Below are positions 35,260 to 39,181 of a stretch of 64,000 nt of DNA, one piece after another. The notes beneath the pieces are model-generated. The model was not told the DNA's origin. It was given only the letters and a program-made list of their open reading frames with translations, and made no database searches. The position numbers were made by a program, and so were the translations under genes. How positions within the stretch are numbered: the first letter of the stretch is position 1; each line of letters starts with the position of its first letter. The DNA is from Mycetocola zhadangensis (GTDB lineage: Bacteria; Actinomycetota; Actinomycetes; Actinomycetales; Microbacteriaceae): contig NZ_RCWJ01000002.1 in the NCBI RefSeq assembly GCF_003668565.1, positions 434,001-498,000 of the forward strand, read 5' to 3'.

Positions 35260-36768
35260 CTAGTGCCCGACCGGCATGCCTTCGGGCAGGTCGGCGGGCT
35301 TCTTCACGAAGATCGCTCCGACCACGGCCAGCAGCGAGATGATCGCGCCAACGAAGAACGCTGACTGCACTCCGCCGGCTGCCGCAGCGACGTCGGAAGC
35401 GCCGTCGCTGGCCAGGGCGGCTGATGTGGTCGACATCAGGGTGATGAACAGCGCGGTTCCAGCGGCACCCGCGACCTGCTGCACGGTGCTCACCGTCGCC
35501 GAGGCGTGGGTGTACAAGCGCGGGTTCACCGAACCCATGGCCGACGTGAACAGTGGAGTGAAGAGGAACGACAGCCCGGCGCTCAGGACGATGTGCGCGC
35601 CGAGGAGGTAGAACGGCGAGGTCGACTCGCTGACCATGGCCAGCGCCCAGAGGGCGGAGCTCACGACGATCGAACCGGGTATGAGCAGCGGCCGCGGGCC
35701 GAACCTGTCGTAGAGACGGCCGACGAACGGCGCGAGCAGACCCATGAGGAGCCCGCCTGGCAGGAGCAGCAGGCCGGTCTCAAGCGGTTCGAGTCCGAGC
35801 ACCTGCTGGGTGAAGATAGGCACCAGGATGATCGTGCCGAAGAGTGCAGCCATGCTGATCACCATCACGACGATGGAGATGCTGAAGTTCGATGAGCGGA
35901 ACGTGCGCAGATCGAGCAGTGCGCGGTCGTGCCGCTGCAGCAGCAGCTGCCTAATGATGAAGCTGCCGAACCCGAGCACGCCGACGGCGAGTGCGATCCA
36001 CATCGGCATGGCCGCTGCGGACTGTTCAGCTGCGGTGGCGTCGGCGGGGCCGTGCCCGCCGATCTGGCTCAGCCCGTAGATCAGTCCGCCGAAGCCGAAC
36101 GCCGACAGCAGGACCGAGATCACGTCGAGGGGCACGCGCCGAGGCTCGGACACGTTCTCGACCCGGCGGATGCCGATGACCAGCATGACAACGGCGATCG
36201 GCAGTACGATCCAGAACATCCAGCGCCAGCTCAGCGCGTTGAGGATGATGCCGGAGATCGTGGGGCCGATCGCTGGTGCGACCGAGATGACGATGGAGAT
36301 GTTGCCCATCATCCGGCCGCGCTGGGCGACAGGGATGAGCGTCATGATCGTGGTCATCAGCAGAGGCACCATGATCGCGGTGCCAGAAGCCTGCACGACG
36401 CGGGCGACGAGCAGCACCTCGAAGTTGGGGGCGAGCGCGGCGAGCAGGGTGCCCATCGAGAACAGGCTCATCGCCGTGATGAAGATCGGGCGCGTGTGGA
36501 AACGCTGCAACAGGAACCCGGTGATCGGGATGACAACAGCCATGGTGAGCAGGAACGCCGTGGTCAGCCACTGCGCGGCGCGAGCGTCAATGTTGAGGTC
36601 GAGCATGAGCTCGTTGATCGCGACGCTCATGATCGTCTCGTTGAGGATCACAACGAAGGTCGCGGCAAGTAGCAGCCAGATCACCCGGCGGTTGCGAGCC
36701 ACATGGTCGGGGGAGACCGTTTCGGCTGAGGCGACGGAGTCGTCGAGAAGGGGGACGCGATCGTTCAC
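35260..36768 (-). CDS. DHA2-family MFS multidrug exporter
   Basis: 502-residue, 14-helix drug:H+ antiporter of the EmrB/QacA class. Visible are motif D-like LNETIMSVAINELMLDLNI in helix 1, the long loop-2/3 region LLQRFHTRPIFITAMSLFSMG, motif B in VARVVQASGTAIMVPLL and motif C in SVAPAIGPTISGIIL. GTG start at 36766-36768 with a basic-poor, acidic N-terminus. Expected to extrude lipophilic compounds. No local regulator is adjacent; upstream lies the repeat array, which is transcribed into it if nnrD reads through. Confidence 0.92.
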   Translation of the reverse strand: MNDRVPLLDDSVASAETVSPDHVARNRRVIWLLLAATFVVILNETIMSVAINELMLDLNIDARAAQWLTTAFLLTMAVVIPITGFLLQRFHTRPIFITAMSLFSMGTLLAALAPNFEVLLVARVVQASGTAIMVPLLMTTIMTLIPVAQRGRMMGNISIVISVAPAIGPTISGIILNALSWRWMFWIVLPIAVVMLVIGIRRVENVSEPRRVPLDVISVLLSAFGFGGLIYGLSQIGGHGPADATAAEQSAAAMPMWIALAVGVLGFGSFIIRQLLLQRHDRALLDLRTFRSSNFSISIVVMVISMAALFGTIILVPIFTQQVLGLEPLETGLLLLPGGLLMGLLAPFVGRLYDRFGPRPLLIPGSIVVSSALWALAMVSESTSPFYLLGAHIVLSAGLSFLFTPLFTSAMGSVNPRLYTHASATVSTVQQVAGAAGTALFITLMSTTSAALASDGASDVAAAAGGVQSAFFVGAIISLLAVVGAIFVKKPADLPEGMPVGH

Positions 36769-37070
36769 AGAAGTCCAATTGTTCAGTCGAGCGCACTCGA
36801 GGGGCTGTCAGCCGCGGGCGCGGTGGGGCAGAGGGAGGATGCAGGCGAGCGGATGCCACGCCAGGCGTTCACGAACCTTCTCGCGGAGAGTGCGAAATGG
36901 CACTGACCGCCGTAGCCCCAACGACAAGGTATTCCACCGTATTCCCGGTGAGGGAAAAGTTTGCTGAGCCGTGGTGCGCCGTTCACCCGATGCGGAGCCG
37001 CCATCGCGGTCGTTCCGGCCACGCTGCCCGCTGCGGAGTCACCATCGGCGGTCGCCCGGCCCACACCGCG
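36769..37070. other. intergenic region between MFS exporter and repeat array
   Basis: About 300 bases with no convincing gene. It should hold the exporter promoter. Open frames seen on the minus strand here are low in hydrophobic residues and run out of the repeat array, so I do not support them. Confidence 0.4.
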
Positions 37071-37509
37071 TTGCTCAGTCGCAAACGGCTATTGCACCCT
37101 TGCTCGGTCGCAAACGGTCGAATTTTCACGAAGATCGTCGCCATCTGTGACCGAGCACAGCGTGACTGACCATTTGCGCCCACGCCCCACGCCCCACGCC
37201 GCGTTGCTCGGTCGCAAACGGCTGTTGCACCCTTGCTCGGTCGCAAACGGCTGTTGCACCCTTGCTCGGTCGCAAACGGCTGTTGCACCCTTGCTCGGTC
37301 GCGAACGGTCGAATTTTCACGAAGATCGTCGCCATCTGTGACCGAGCACAGCGTGACTGACCGTTTGCGCCCACGCCCCACGCCCCACGCCGCGTTGCTC
37401 GGTCGCAAACGGCTGTTGCACCCTTGCTCGGTCGCGAACGGTCGAATTTTCACGAAGATCGTCGCCATCTGTGACCGAGCACAGCGTGACTGACCGTTTG
37501 CGCCCACGC
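37071..37509. repeat. tandem array: 133-bp unit x3 with internal 29-bp repeats
   Basis: A 29-bp element beginning TTGCTCGGTCGCAAACGGCT occurs once in unit 1 (37071), three times in a row in unit 2 (37204, 37233, 37262) and once in unit 3 (37395). Each run is followed by a conserved block starting at 37100, 37291 and 37424; the distances are 191 and 133, i.e. 133 plus two extra 29-mers. Within each block A (TGCTCGGTC) and B (CGCAAACGGTC, one base varying) are followed by A' (GACCGAGCA) and B' (GACCGTTTGCG), an A-B-A'-B' order. Neither 133 nor 29 is a multiple of three, so it is not protein-coding. Confidence 0.9.
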
Positions 37510-37578
37510 AAGGTGCGGGCAGGCGACACCGAGCGCGCACCATCAACCGTTTGCGCCCACGCAAGGTGCGGGTAGGCG
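37493..37578. repeat. 33-bp direct repeat next to the nnrD stop
   Basis: ACCGTTTGCGCCCACGCAAG plus the following 13 bases occurs at 37493-37525 and 37546-37578 with one mismatch. The first copy is the right end of the 133-bp array, the second abuts the nnrD stop codon, so the array appears to have spread from, or into, the gene's 3' edge. Confidence 0.85.
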
Positions 37579-38463
37579 CTACCCGTTGATTTCGACCAGC
37601 ACGCGCGGGAACTCGTCGAGCAGTTCGCGCGCCAGGAACCCCATCGGGCCGACCTGAACGGCGAGACGATCACCGGCCGCGGCGTGCGCGTGGGTGGCCC
37701 AGACCGCCGCCTGCTCGAGCGATGCACCGCGTGCGCAGAGCCCGGTGATGGCGCCGGCGAGCACGTCGCCGCTGCCCGATGTGGCGAGTCCGCCCGCGCC
37801 GGTTCCGGTGCGCCACACCCGACCGTCGGGATGAGCGATGACGTCGTAACAGGTGACCACTGCGCCATAACGCTCGGCAATTTCCGCGATGTCCGTGGCA
37901 AGATCGTCGCCGAGGTCTCGTTCGAGCAACCGCTCGGCCTCGCCTTTATTCGGTGTCAGCAGCAGCCGACCGGCCAACGCCGAGACGGCATCCGGCACCC
38001 CGGGAAGAACTCCGAGCGCGAACGCGTCCAGCACGACGACCGTTTCCTCACCCAAAAGCGACGGCAGGGTCGAGAGCATCACCTTGAGTTCGTCGGGGTC
38101 ATCGAGGCCGGGACCCACGAGCACCGCGTCGCTGCTCGAGAGATCCTTTTCGGCAACCGCGAGCCCGTCCCCGGAGACAGCACCGTCCGCCGTTTCGGGC
38201 AGGAACACGATTCCGCTCTCGGGCACGGCGACAGCGACAGGTGCAGCGACGGACCCAGCCACAGCGAGTGTCAGCCGCCCGGCGCCGACGCGCAGCGCGG
38301 CCATTCCAGCGAGCATCGCCGCACCGGGGGAGCGCCGTGCGCCGCCGACGATGAGCACTGTGCCGCGCCCGTACTTCGAGTCGCTGGCCTCGGGCAGCGC
38401 CCATTCCCGCAGCAGGTTGGGGGTGACCACTACGTGGTCGGAGGGGTCAGTGCGGGTGGACAT
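37579..38463 (-). CDS. nnrD: ADP-dependent NAD(P)H-hydrate dehydratase
   Basis: 294 residues from ATG 38461-38463, preceded by GGAGGAGA. The enzyme repairs damaged NAD(P)H by ATP/ADP-dependent dehydration of the hydrate. Family marks of the ribokinase-like CARKD fold: KYGRGTVLIVGGARRSPGAA (about 30-49), VLVGPGLDD near 112, LLLTPNKGEAERLL near 165 and the catalytic/nucleotide region GGLATSGSGDVLAGAITGL near 228 with the general-base Asp. It lacks the N-terminal epimerase domain (NnrE) found in fused forms. Its start overlaps the end of the histidine-phosphatase gene by 17 bases. Confidence 0.93.
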   Translation of the reverse strand: MSTRTDPSDHVVVTPNLLREWALPEASDSKYGRGTVLIVGGARRSPGAAMLAGMAALRVGAGRLTLAVAGSVAAPVAVAVPESGIVFLPETADGAVSGDGLAVAEKDLSSSDAVLVGPGLDDPDELKVMLSTLPSLLGEETVVVLDAFALGVLPGVPDAVSALAGRLLLTPNKGEAERLLERDLGDDLATDIAEIAERYGAVVTCYDVIAHPDGRVWRTGTGAGGLATSGSGDVLAGAITGLCARGASLEQAAVWATHAHAAAGDRLAVQVGPMGFLARELLDEFPRVLVEING

Positions 38464-39181
38464 TGCTGTCTCCTCCGTGTCGGGTGACTGGGACGCCAAG
38501 GGCTTCAAGGTGATCGTCGTGTGAGAAGACGTCGAGGGTCCAGCGTGCCGAGCCGGGCTCCCGCGAGAGTTGCGTGACCGACGCGTTGAGCACTGTGTGC
38601 GAGCCGATGAAGTCGAGCAGCTCTTGTTCAGACCAGCCGAGGCAGATGTAGAGGAACACCATCACAACGGCGTCGTGCGCTGCAATCAGCACGGGGCCGT
38701 CGCCGCTCGTCGAGTCCAGATCGCGGAGGAATGAACGCACGCGCAGCACAACATCCGTCCATGACTCTCCGCCCGGCGGCCGGTAGTAGAACTTCCCCAG
38801 CCAGCGCCGTCGCGCCGCCTCCTCGGGCAGCCGCACGTCGACGCCGTGCGAGGTCAACGCGTCGAGGATGCCGAGTTCCCTGTCTCGCAACCGCTCGTCG
38901 ACCAGGATCGGCAGTTCCAGCCCTGAGCCCTCGAGCGCGATCGCCGTCGTCTGCTGCGCCCGAAGATACGGCGAACTCCACACCGACTCCGGCCTGCCGT
39001 CGGCCGCTGAGAGCCAGTGTCCAAGCGCCTCCGCCTGCCGCATACCGGCATCCGATAACGGCACATCCGCGTCGCGATGTTCCACAGCAATGGCCTCAAG
39101 ACCTGCTCGTTGCGCCTCGGTCGCGAGCACATTCGCCGTGCTCTCCCCGTGCCGAACCAGCCACAGTTGGGTTGCAGTCAT
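38447..39181 (-). CDS. histidine phosphatase family protein (phosphoglycerate-mutase-like)
   Basis: 244-residue phosphatase of the branch-1 histidine phosphatase superfamily. The catalytic motif LVRHGESTAN (His11) is at 8-17, the second Arg in SSPYLRAQQT near 70, the proton-donor Glu in RELGILDAL near 101 and the second catalytic His in LIAAHDAVVMVF near 167. Substrate cannot be read. It is the first gene of a two-gene unit with nnrD, overlapping its start. Divergent from sbcD. Confidence 0.92.
   Translation of the reverse strand: MTATQLWLVRHGESTANVLATEAQRAGLEAIAVEHRDADVPLSDAGMRQAEALGHWLSAADGRPESVWSSPYLRAQQTTAIALEGSGLELPILVDERLRDRELGILDALTSHGVDVRLPEEAARRRWLGKFYYRPPGGESWTDVVLRVRSFLRDLDSTSGDGPVLIAAHDAVVMVFLYICLGWSEQELLDFIGSHTVLNASVTQLSREPGSARWTLDVFSHDDHLEALGVPVTRHGGDSNVHPH

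Follow-up and report, generated by a model that had tools for sequence, protein, structure and literature searches.

The 133-bp tandem array that lies between nnrD and an exporter gene of Mycetocola zhadangensis belongs, as an amplified copy, to a family of palindromic repeats dispersed through the genome and is not a unique pseudoknot RNA. We consider it somewhat probable that the palindrome amplified here has as its partner an AbiEi-like/Vsr-type (DUF559, MTES_1575) nuclease, whose gene is at another place in the genome, and that this nuclease would bind, cut, and copy the palindrome.

An initial annotation of the window (the whole stretch of 64,000 nucleotides analyzed here) had described a tandem array at positions 37071-37509, and TRF recovered it there with periods of 29, 133, and 191 bp. 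Its large units follow each other at start-to-start steps of 133 bp (37071 to 37204) and 191 bp (37204 to 37395), the longer step being the shorter one plus two additional 29-bp copies; as described, the extra 29-bp copies number 1, 3, and 1 per unit. Mapping with the 18-bp half-site TTGCTCGGTCGCAAACGG as the query separated two levels of amplification, one of half-sites (29 bp) and one of whole elements (133/191 bp), with blocks of forward half-sites meeting blocks of reverse ones at 55-bp centers (Table 1). Half-sites continue beyond the described end of 37509, up to 37564. The 55-bp center occurs three times versus 0.03 times expected from 100 shuffles, counted with a pattern that was written after the element had been seen. 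Rather than belonging to the 3' region of nnrD, as had been proposed, the array follows the nnrD stop and occupies part of the 810-bp gap that separates this gene from the MFS gene, both of which are on the minus strand. It had been judged not to be a gene, in agreement with our gene calling, which used a simple codon score with the window as the training set (applied to distant genomes too) and placed no gene in this gap. By eye, two degenerate direct repeats, gccatcgcggtcgttccggccac and accatcggcggtcgcccggcccac, can be seen at 36990-37065, between the array and the conserved flank but still within the insert, and these are possibly decayed older units.

Table 1. Features of the array and its surroundings, in positions of the window.
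Feature	Position	Strand	Remark
Inverted half-site array	37071..37564		Comprises three amplified elements and, at the outside, one more reverse half-site
Central palindrome 1 (55 bp)	37102..37156
Central palindrome 2 (55 bp)	37293..37347
Central palindrome 3 (55 bp)	37426..37480
Element 1, forward half-sites	37071-37088, 37100-37117	+	29-bp step
Element 1, reverse half-sites	37141-37158, 37170-37187	-	Origin of A' and B' of the initial annotation
Element 2, four forward half-sites	37204..37308	+	29-bp step; starts 37204, 37233, 37262, 37291
Element 2, reverse half-sites	37332..37378	-	Starts 37332, 37361
Element 3, forward half-sites	37395..37441	+	Starts 37395, 37424
Element 3, reverse half-sites	37465..37511	-	Starts 37465, 37494
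Extra outer reverse half-site	37547..37564	-
Lineage-specific insert	36972..37579		nnrD stop to conserved exporter 5' flank; holds the entire array; compared with the near-empty site of G003
nnrD gene	37579..38508	-	5' of the insert; named after the initial annotation; orthologues serve as synteny reference
MFS exporter gene	35260..36768	-	3' of the insert; MFS_1, 1.8e-54

Two inverted pairs had been read in the order A-B-A'-B', which would allow a pseudoknot or two alternative hairpins. Both pairs are present, but they do not form a special topology, given that A and B are two parts of a single half-site. A' (GACCGAGCA) and B' (GACCGTTTGCG) do not belong to one half-site but come from successive reverse half-sites (those starting at 37141/37170, 37332/37361, and 37465/37494), in each of which one part has decayed; it is thus this decay that produces the interleaved order, and the layout is one of nested inverted half-sites.

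The array is not a single occurrence either, since a search of its own genome with the array as the query returned 18 matches, the array itself included. The basic element consists of two inverted half-sites, GCTCGGTC-N6-GG...CC-N6-GACCGAGC, and is 55 bp long. Among 20 stretches that we read, most run from forward half-sites through a center to reverse half-sites, with forward half-site steps of about 29-31 or 40-41 bp, and some are single chance matches inside genes. The geometry of the center is fixed: half-sites are spaced by exactly 42 bp in 21/22 reported pairs when 30-48 bp is searched, and when the gap is left free over 31 lengths, all of the matches listed (10/16 in the own genome and 10/12 in G001) are 55 bp long. 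The same free-gap search gave no match in G003 and one of 68 bp in G005, both of the same genus, and matches of variable length in other genera, with any match at all in 60/199 genomes. The variable lengths and the 68-bp match point to chance matches; we therefore rejected a family-wide spread of the exact GCTCGGTC motif, since match lengths in other genera vary as chance predicts.

To describe the element, 52 extracted 55-mers were reduced to 39 by dropping 3 chance matches and 10 near-identical sequences, and these 39 elements align without gaps. Invariant positions fall within the outer box, GCTCGGTC, and within the GG further inward; the loop of 17 bp and the 6 bp that separate the box from the GG are variable. 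A covariance model of the element matched 6/6 genomes of the genus (55, 81, 45, 42, 22, and 88 matches, with both strands counted and only 150 candidates scored per genome). Together with the absence of any Rfam family match in 36700-37900 up to an E value of 5, this supports the earlier suggestion of a new repeat family. In the own genome (G000), C3:1-71940 and C4:308187-380126 share a 72-kb stretch whose two ends are identical (two 600-bp comparisons), so that one element is counted twice; this is probably an unmerged assembly overlap, which doubles copy counts. At the family level, 33/299 genomes match at an E value of 0.001, of which 27 are outside the genus, many of them weakly, and 16 elements from five out-of-genus genomes keep the 59-bp frame with a different sequence in it, several being near-perfect palindromes. 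Elements of genus g48 (L183, L184, L185, L186, L187, and L188) are near-perfect palindromes with 22-bp arms of the GATCGGTCGCNAACTGTCGC type, and no multiplication of the arms is visible in the 45 bp on each side of them.

The predicted hairpins of the elements range from -16 to -38 kcal/mol. Over the 39 elements, pairing at the variable positions 9-14 amounts to 141 versus 120.5 after shuffling, a value reached by 1/2000 shuffles, and the covariation score was reached by 4/500 shuffles. Genome by genome, the observed and shuffled values are 49/96 versus 50.8 in the own genome, 44/72 versus 37.6 in G001, 18/24 versus 15.2 in G002, and 30/42 versus 30.3 in G005. A comparison of the pooled and per-genome values shows that pairing is somewhat favored between genomes but not within the own genome. 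Poor pairing of the variable stretch in two of these four genomes suggests that the full hairpin is not required; the feature that is kept in the element is the two boxes in inverted orientation. We set aside the proposed pseudoknot or alternative-hairpin RNA on account of the half-site map, the Rfam result, and the lack of pairing within the own genome, even though pairing is detectable over all elements. The regulatory RNA that had been considered, though conceivable, is not supported by the pairing values of the own genome.

The insert that holds the array is lineage specific. In G003 (NnrD 84% identical), which has the gap sequence of Okibacterium sp. HSC-33S16 (locus L082), the nnrD stop and the conserved stretch are about 12 bp apart, versus about 608 bp in the window (36972-37579), and the gene order of the window recurs without the array in L083, L084, and L085, the last being also that of G001, whose nnrD gap sequence is shared with Mycetocola manganoxydans NZ_RCUV01000003.1. 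With four relatives of identical gene order (L082-L085) that have no array, we also rejected the idea that it regulates the exporter. The single occupied/empty comparison, that of the window with G003, has edges too diverged to delimit a target-site duplication. Elsewhere, several element loci have flanking genes that recur in different species, and some of the elements align at the identical place, which indicates that part of the family is old or has been retained. Element positions common to species could mean retained functional sites and not ongoing movement. The 53 element clusters present in loci that had been fetched for other reasons from eight genomes comprise 20 in convergent, 21 in tandem, and 4 in divergent gaps, with 5 inside called open reading frames and 3 undecided; the corresponding numbers for the 30 gaps longer than 60 bp in the window are 3, 19, and 8. 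This bias toward the 3' ends of genes is similar to that of REP repeats.

A comparison of the genes beside the elements revealed one protein family that adjoins them in G000, G001, and G005 as well as in two other genera (G145 and G175), the remaining repeated matches being conserved flanks of orthologous loci. The protein has ∼300 amino acids and is a fusion of a Vsr/DUF559-type nuclease with an AbiEi-like part. In the own genome, its gene is located at G000:C5:247656-248564 with copies of the element alongside; the covariance model finds two upstream copies, on one side only. Orthologues are present in 6/6 genomes of the genus (the five others being 71-73% identical), and elements lie within their 1.5-kb flanks in all six, on both sides in 5/6. 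The other 24 homologue loci show at most weak matches to this element, four of them at E values of 1e-4 to 0.07. The G000 gene sits between genes of a diacylglycerol kinase type and a glutamate dehydrogenase, and that of G005 sits between homologues of both, which makes this an inherited place.

Among 77 homologue loci, 72 passed filtering (5 were removed for odd length or a partial match), and a further six (L208, L220, L234, L244, L249, and L283) were left out by hand, so that 66 were aligned. Residues E199, D232, H249, D259, and R262 are invariant in 66/66 homologues and E243 is nearly invariant; we take catalytic residues to be among them. At an E value of 0.01, the Pfam models MTES_1575 and DUF559 match 47/66 and 39/66 homologues, respectively, and one PADLOC AbiEi profile matches 46/66. 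For the own protein, no Pfam family reaches this threshold; its matches to AbiEi_1, DUF559, and MTES_1575 are weak (E values of 0.09-0.31), and it matches another AbiEi profile at 5.9e-10. When compared with the PDB, the profile of the family finds 3hrl, which is endonuclease-like (6.2e-4), and 3r3p, a mobile intron protein (1.2e-3). Conserved residues and the domain profiles of relatives thus place the family among the Vsr/DUF559-type PD-(D/E)XK nucleases, and the own protein is a putative member of this class through its relatives (47 and 39 of 66) and the weak PDB matches. The family profile matches 64/90 genomes of the bacterial family and 197/296 of the class. To our knowledge, AbiEi-like/DUF559 proteins have no assigned role. 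No AbiEii-type family was found among 8 neighbor proteins at five loci, and we therefore rejected a type IV toxin-antitoxin system. One nuclease/palindrome locus of G001 is adjoined by a transposase-like gene with HTH_38 and rve domains (L110:140-1303).

Paralogues of the nuclease in the genus are accompanied by other palindromes, which are similar among orthologues in several clades, e.g., GTTGC-ACTTT in one clade and, for two members of a second clade, CATCGGTCC; this comparison leaves aside the own-genome paralogue at C2:855706. Another own-genome paralogue has five copies of a different palindrome beside it (G000 C1:26311-26843), showing that clustering is not peculiar to the window. Relatives across Actinomycetia also have palindromes of their own. 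Under a common rule (arm of 20, at least 17 pairs, loop of 5-30, within 500 bp), a palindrome is found near the nuclease gene in 16/30 loci of the genus (22/30 at 16 pairs), 34/46 loci of the family, and 41/53 loci from other families of the class, leaving 14/30 (8/30 at 16 pairs), 12/46, and 12/53 loci without one. Palindromes are two-sided at 1, 21, and 23 of these loci, respectively. The nuclease loci are best-scoring or hand-chosen matches and not a random sample, two sets of 40 and 20 loci having been picked by hand before scanning to spread over families or genomes; sequences shorter than 3300 bases were skipped (3/56 loci outside the family, 1/47 inside, and 1/26 controls). Loci of nnrD, the single control gene, have a palindrome in 1/25 cases and none that is two-sided. 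Distal windows contain one in 2/46 family loci, 2/53 loci outside the family, and 1/25 nnrD loci, as do 2/230, 4/265, and 0/125 shuffles. Counted by gap, with intergenic length matched only roughly, palindromes occur in 112/186 gaps beside the nuclease gene, in 3/37 elsewhere in the same loci, and in 1/33 at nnrD loci.

The palindromes to the left and right of a gene match each other (common stretch scoring at least 14) at 42/44 two-sided loci, versus 6/400 cross-locus pairs, a null that includes some same-genus pairs. When 11 palindromes were searched against 8 genomes, all matches at an E value of 1e-3 were in the palindrome's own genome, and short cross-genome matches appeared from near 0.1. 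At 1e-3, and with the gene-flanking copies included, the palindromes occupy 23 places in G025, 9 in G049, 6 in G010, 5 in G079, 4 in G040, 3 in G067, and 2 in G032; in this last one of the seven foreign genomes, only gene-flanking copies reach that threshold.

The best reading of these observations is a partnership like that of REPINs and RAYTs but built on an unrelated nuclease. The AbiEi-like part would bind its cognate palindrome and the nuclease part would nick or cut the DNA there, after which repair or replication of the broken DNA would leave copies of the palindrome at further intergenic sites, most of them 3' of genes, in the manner of RAYTs and REPINs. The 29-bp and 133/191-bp tandem steps could then have arisen later by slippage or unequal recombination at the inserted palindrome, and copies might also be kept as bound sites. 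Whether this extends to the whole class Actinomycetia, as a genetic system where every AbiEi-like/Vsr-type nuclease has evolved a palindrome of its own and copies it through the genome, with very many distinct pairs, several of them per genome and all independent of HUH transposases, seems to us an evenly balanced question.

The alternative that holds up best, possible but unlikely, is that the palindromes are operators for the AbiEi-like part, which would control its own gene and others, with the dispersed copies as regulated sites. AbiEi binds inverted repeats that precede its own operon, and this keeps the notion alive. Binding of a protein to double-stranded DNA would agree with inverted half-sites of fixed geometry whose boxes are separated by a stretch that varies and pairs poorly, and some element positions are common to species. 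However, the gene is flanked by palindromes on both sides at 44/99 loci outside the genus, elements are mostly 3' of genes (4/45 intergenic clusters are divergent), the copy in the window is missing from relatives, and the conserved catalytic center is left unexplained. Operators thus account poorly for copies downstream of the gene, for the bias toward 3' ends, and for the catalytic center.

Doubtful is the notion of inert 3'-end hairpins, acting as terminators or mRNA stabilizers and carried along by the nuclease gene by chance. The predicted folding energies, the convergent and 3' bias, and pairing that exceeds 1999/2000 shuffles over all 39 elements would all be expected of such hairpins, but neither the gene-specific sequence shared by left and right palindromes nor their enrichment beside the nuclease family relative to controls is explained, nor is the fixed length of 55 bp. 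We give an equally low chance to remnants of insertion sequences or MITEs with palindromic ends, moved by an unrelated transposase. Inverted ends, dispersal, and the HTH_38 and rve gene at L110 agree with this origin; against it, the own genome has no Y1_Tnp match (the only transposase family searched), copies differ internally and yet keep their exact length, and the association in many genomes is with the nuclease. A purely local tandem duplication with no system behind it would fit the near-perfect 133-bp and 29-bp steps and the lineage-specific insert, but it is contradicted as the whole explanation by the same 55-bp element dispersed in 6/6 genomes of the genus and is very improbable, accounting for the last step only.

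The partnership of nuclease and palindrome most resembles the REP/REPIN-RAYT systems (REPtrons and TIRtrons), with which it has in common dispersed extragenic palindromes, inverted pairs of half-elements, clusters, and a single-copy, vertically inherited partner gene flanked by its own repeat. The enzyme differs, being a Y1 HUH transposase in those systems and an AbiEi-like/Vsr-type nuclease here; moreover, the tested palindromes occupy 2 to 23 places per genome at an E value of 1e-3, and several different gene-palindrome pairs occur in one genome. RAYTs are described in parts of PMC8049555 and PMC3733652 as single-copy, vertically inherited genes flanked by repeats or terminal inverted repeats. 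We rejected a RAYT partner for the own genome, where Y1_Tnp (PF01797) has 0 matches, with controls matching in 5/14. By eye, neither a GTAG nor a CGTC tag is present at the ends of the 39 aligned elements. CGTC-tagged REPs apparently have no dedicated transposase, according to a section of PMC3733652, so that palindrome families without a partner are already a noted gap. Like the elements described here, those REPs are, as that section presents them, palindromic extragenic repeats with no RAYT partner; the difference is that here position and sequence pairing provide a candidate non-HUH partner and that no CGTC tag is seen by eye. RepRanger lists REPs in three Actinomycetota genomes (PMC12306157), and palindromes in this phylum are thus not new in themselves; word counts of that paper give no mention of RAYT, DUF559, or endonuclease.

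Two other kinds of system share parts with the nuclease. Vsr-like/EDxHD homing endonucleases (3r3p, the mobile intron protein) have a similar nuclease domain by weak profile match, and spreading driven by DNA breaks would by analogy be plausible here too, but the genes described here were not seen inside introns and the palindromes that flank them also exist alone. The AbiE type IV toxin-antitoxin has an AbiEi-like stretch in common with our family (through the PADLOC profiles, which also match the own protein), which is here fused to a nuclease, with no AbiEii-type family among the neighbors. The layout of the element presumably resembles that of integron attC sites.

In a literature search of incomplete coverage, no paper came up that links palindromic repeats with nucleases of the DUF559 or AbiEi kind. 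We regard the system as new in kind because its enzyme class is unrelated to that of any repeat partner found; if kind were defined by function alone, it would be a variant of the REPtron. AbiEi-like/DUF559 proteins are common in actinobacteria, and pairing with a palindrome gives each of them a directly testable substrate. Such pairing would be one answer to the question of why some repeat families have no transposase, and the pairs would form a large natural collection of distinct DNA-recognition pairs. The array itself turns from an isolated oddity into the readable product of a genome-wide process. At 145-196 of the window, on the minus strand (C2:434145-434196), there is also a copy of another palindrome (77% identity, E value of 9e-4), of the type that belongs to the own-genome paralogue at C3:360434-361372.
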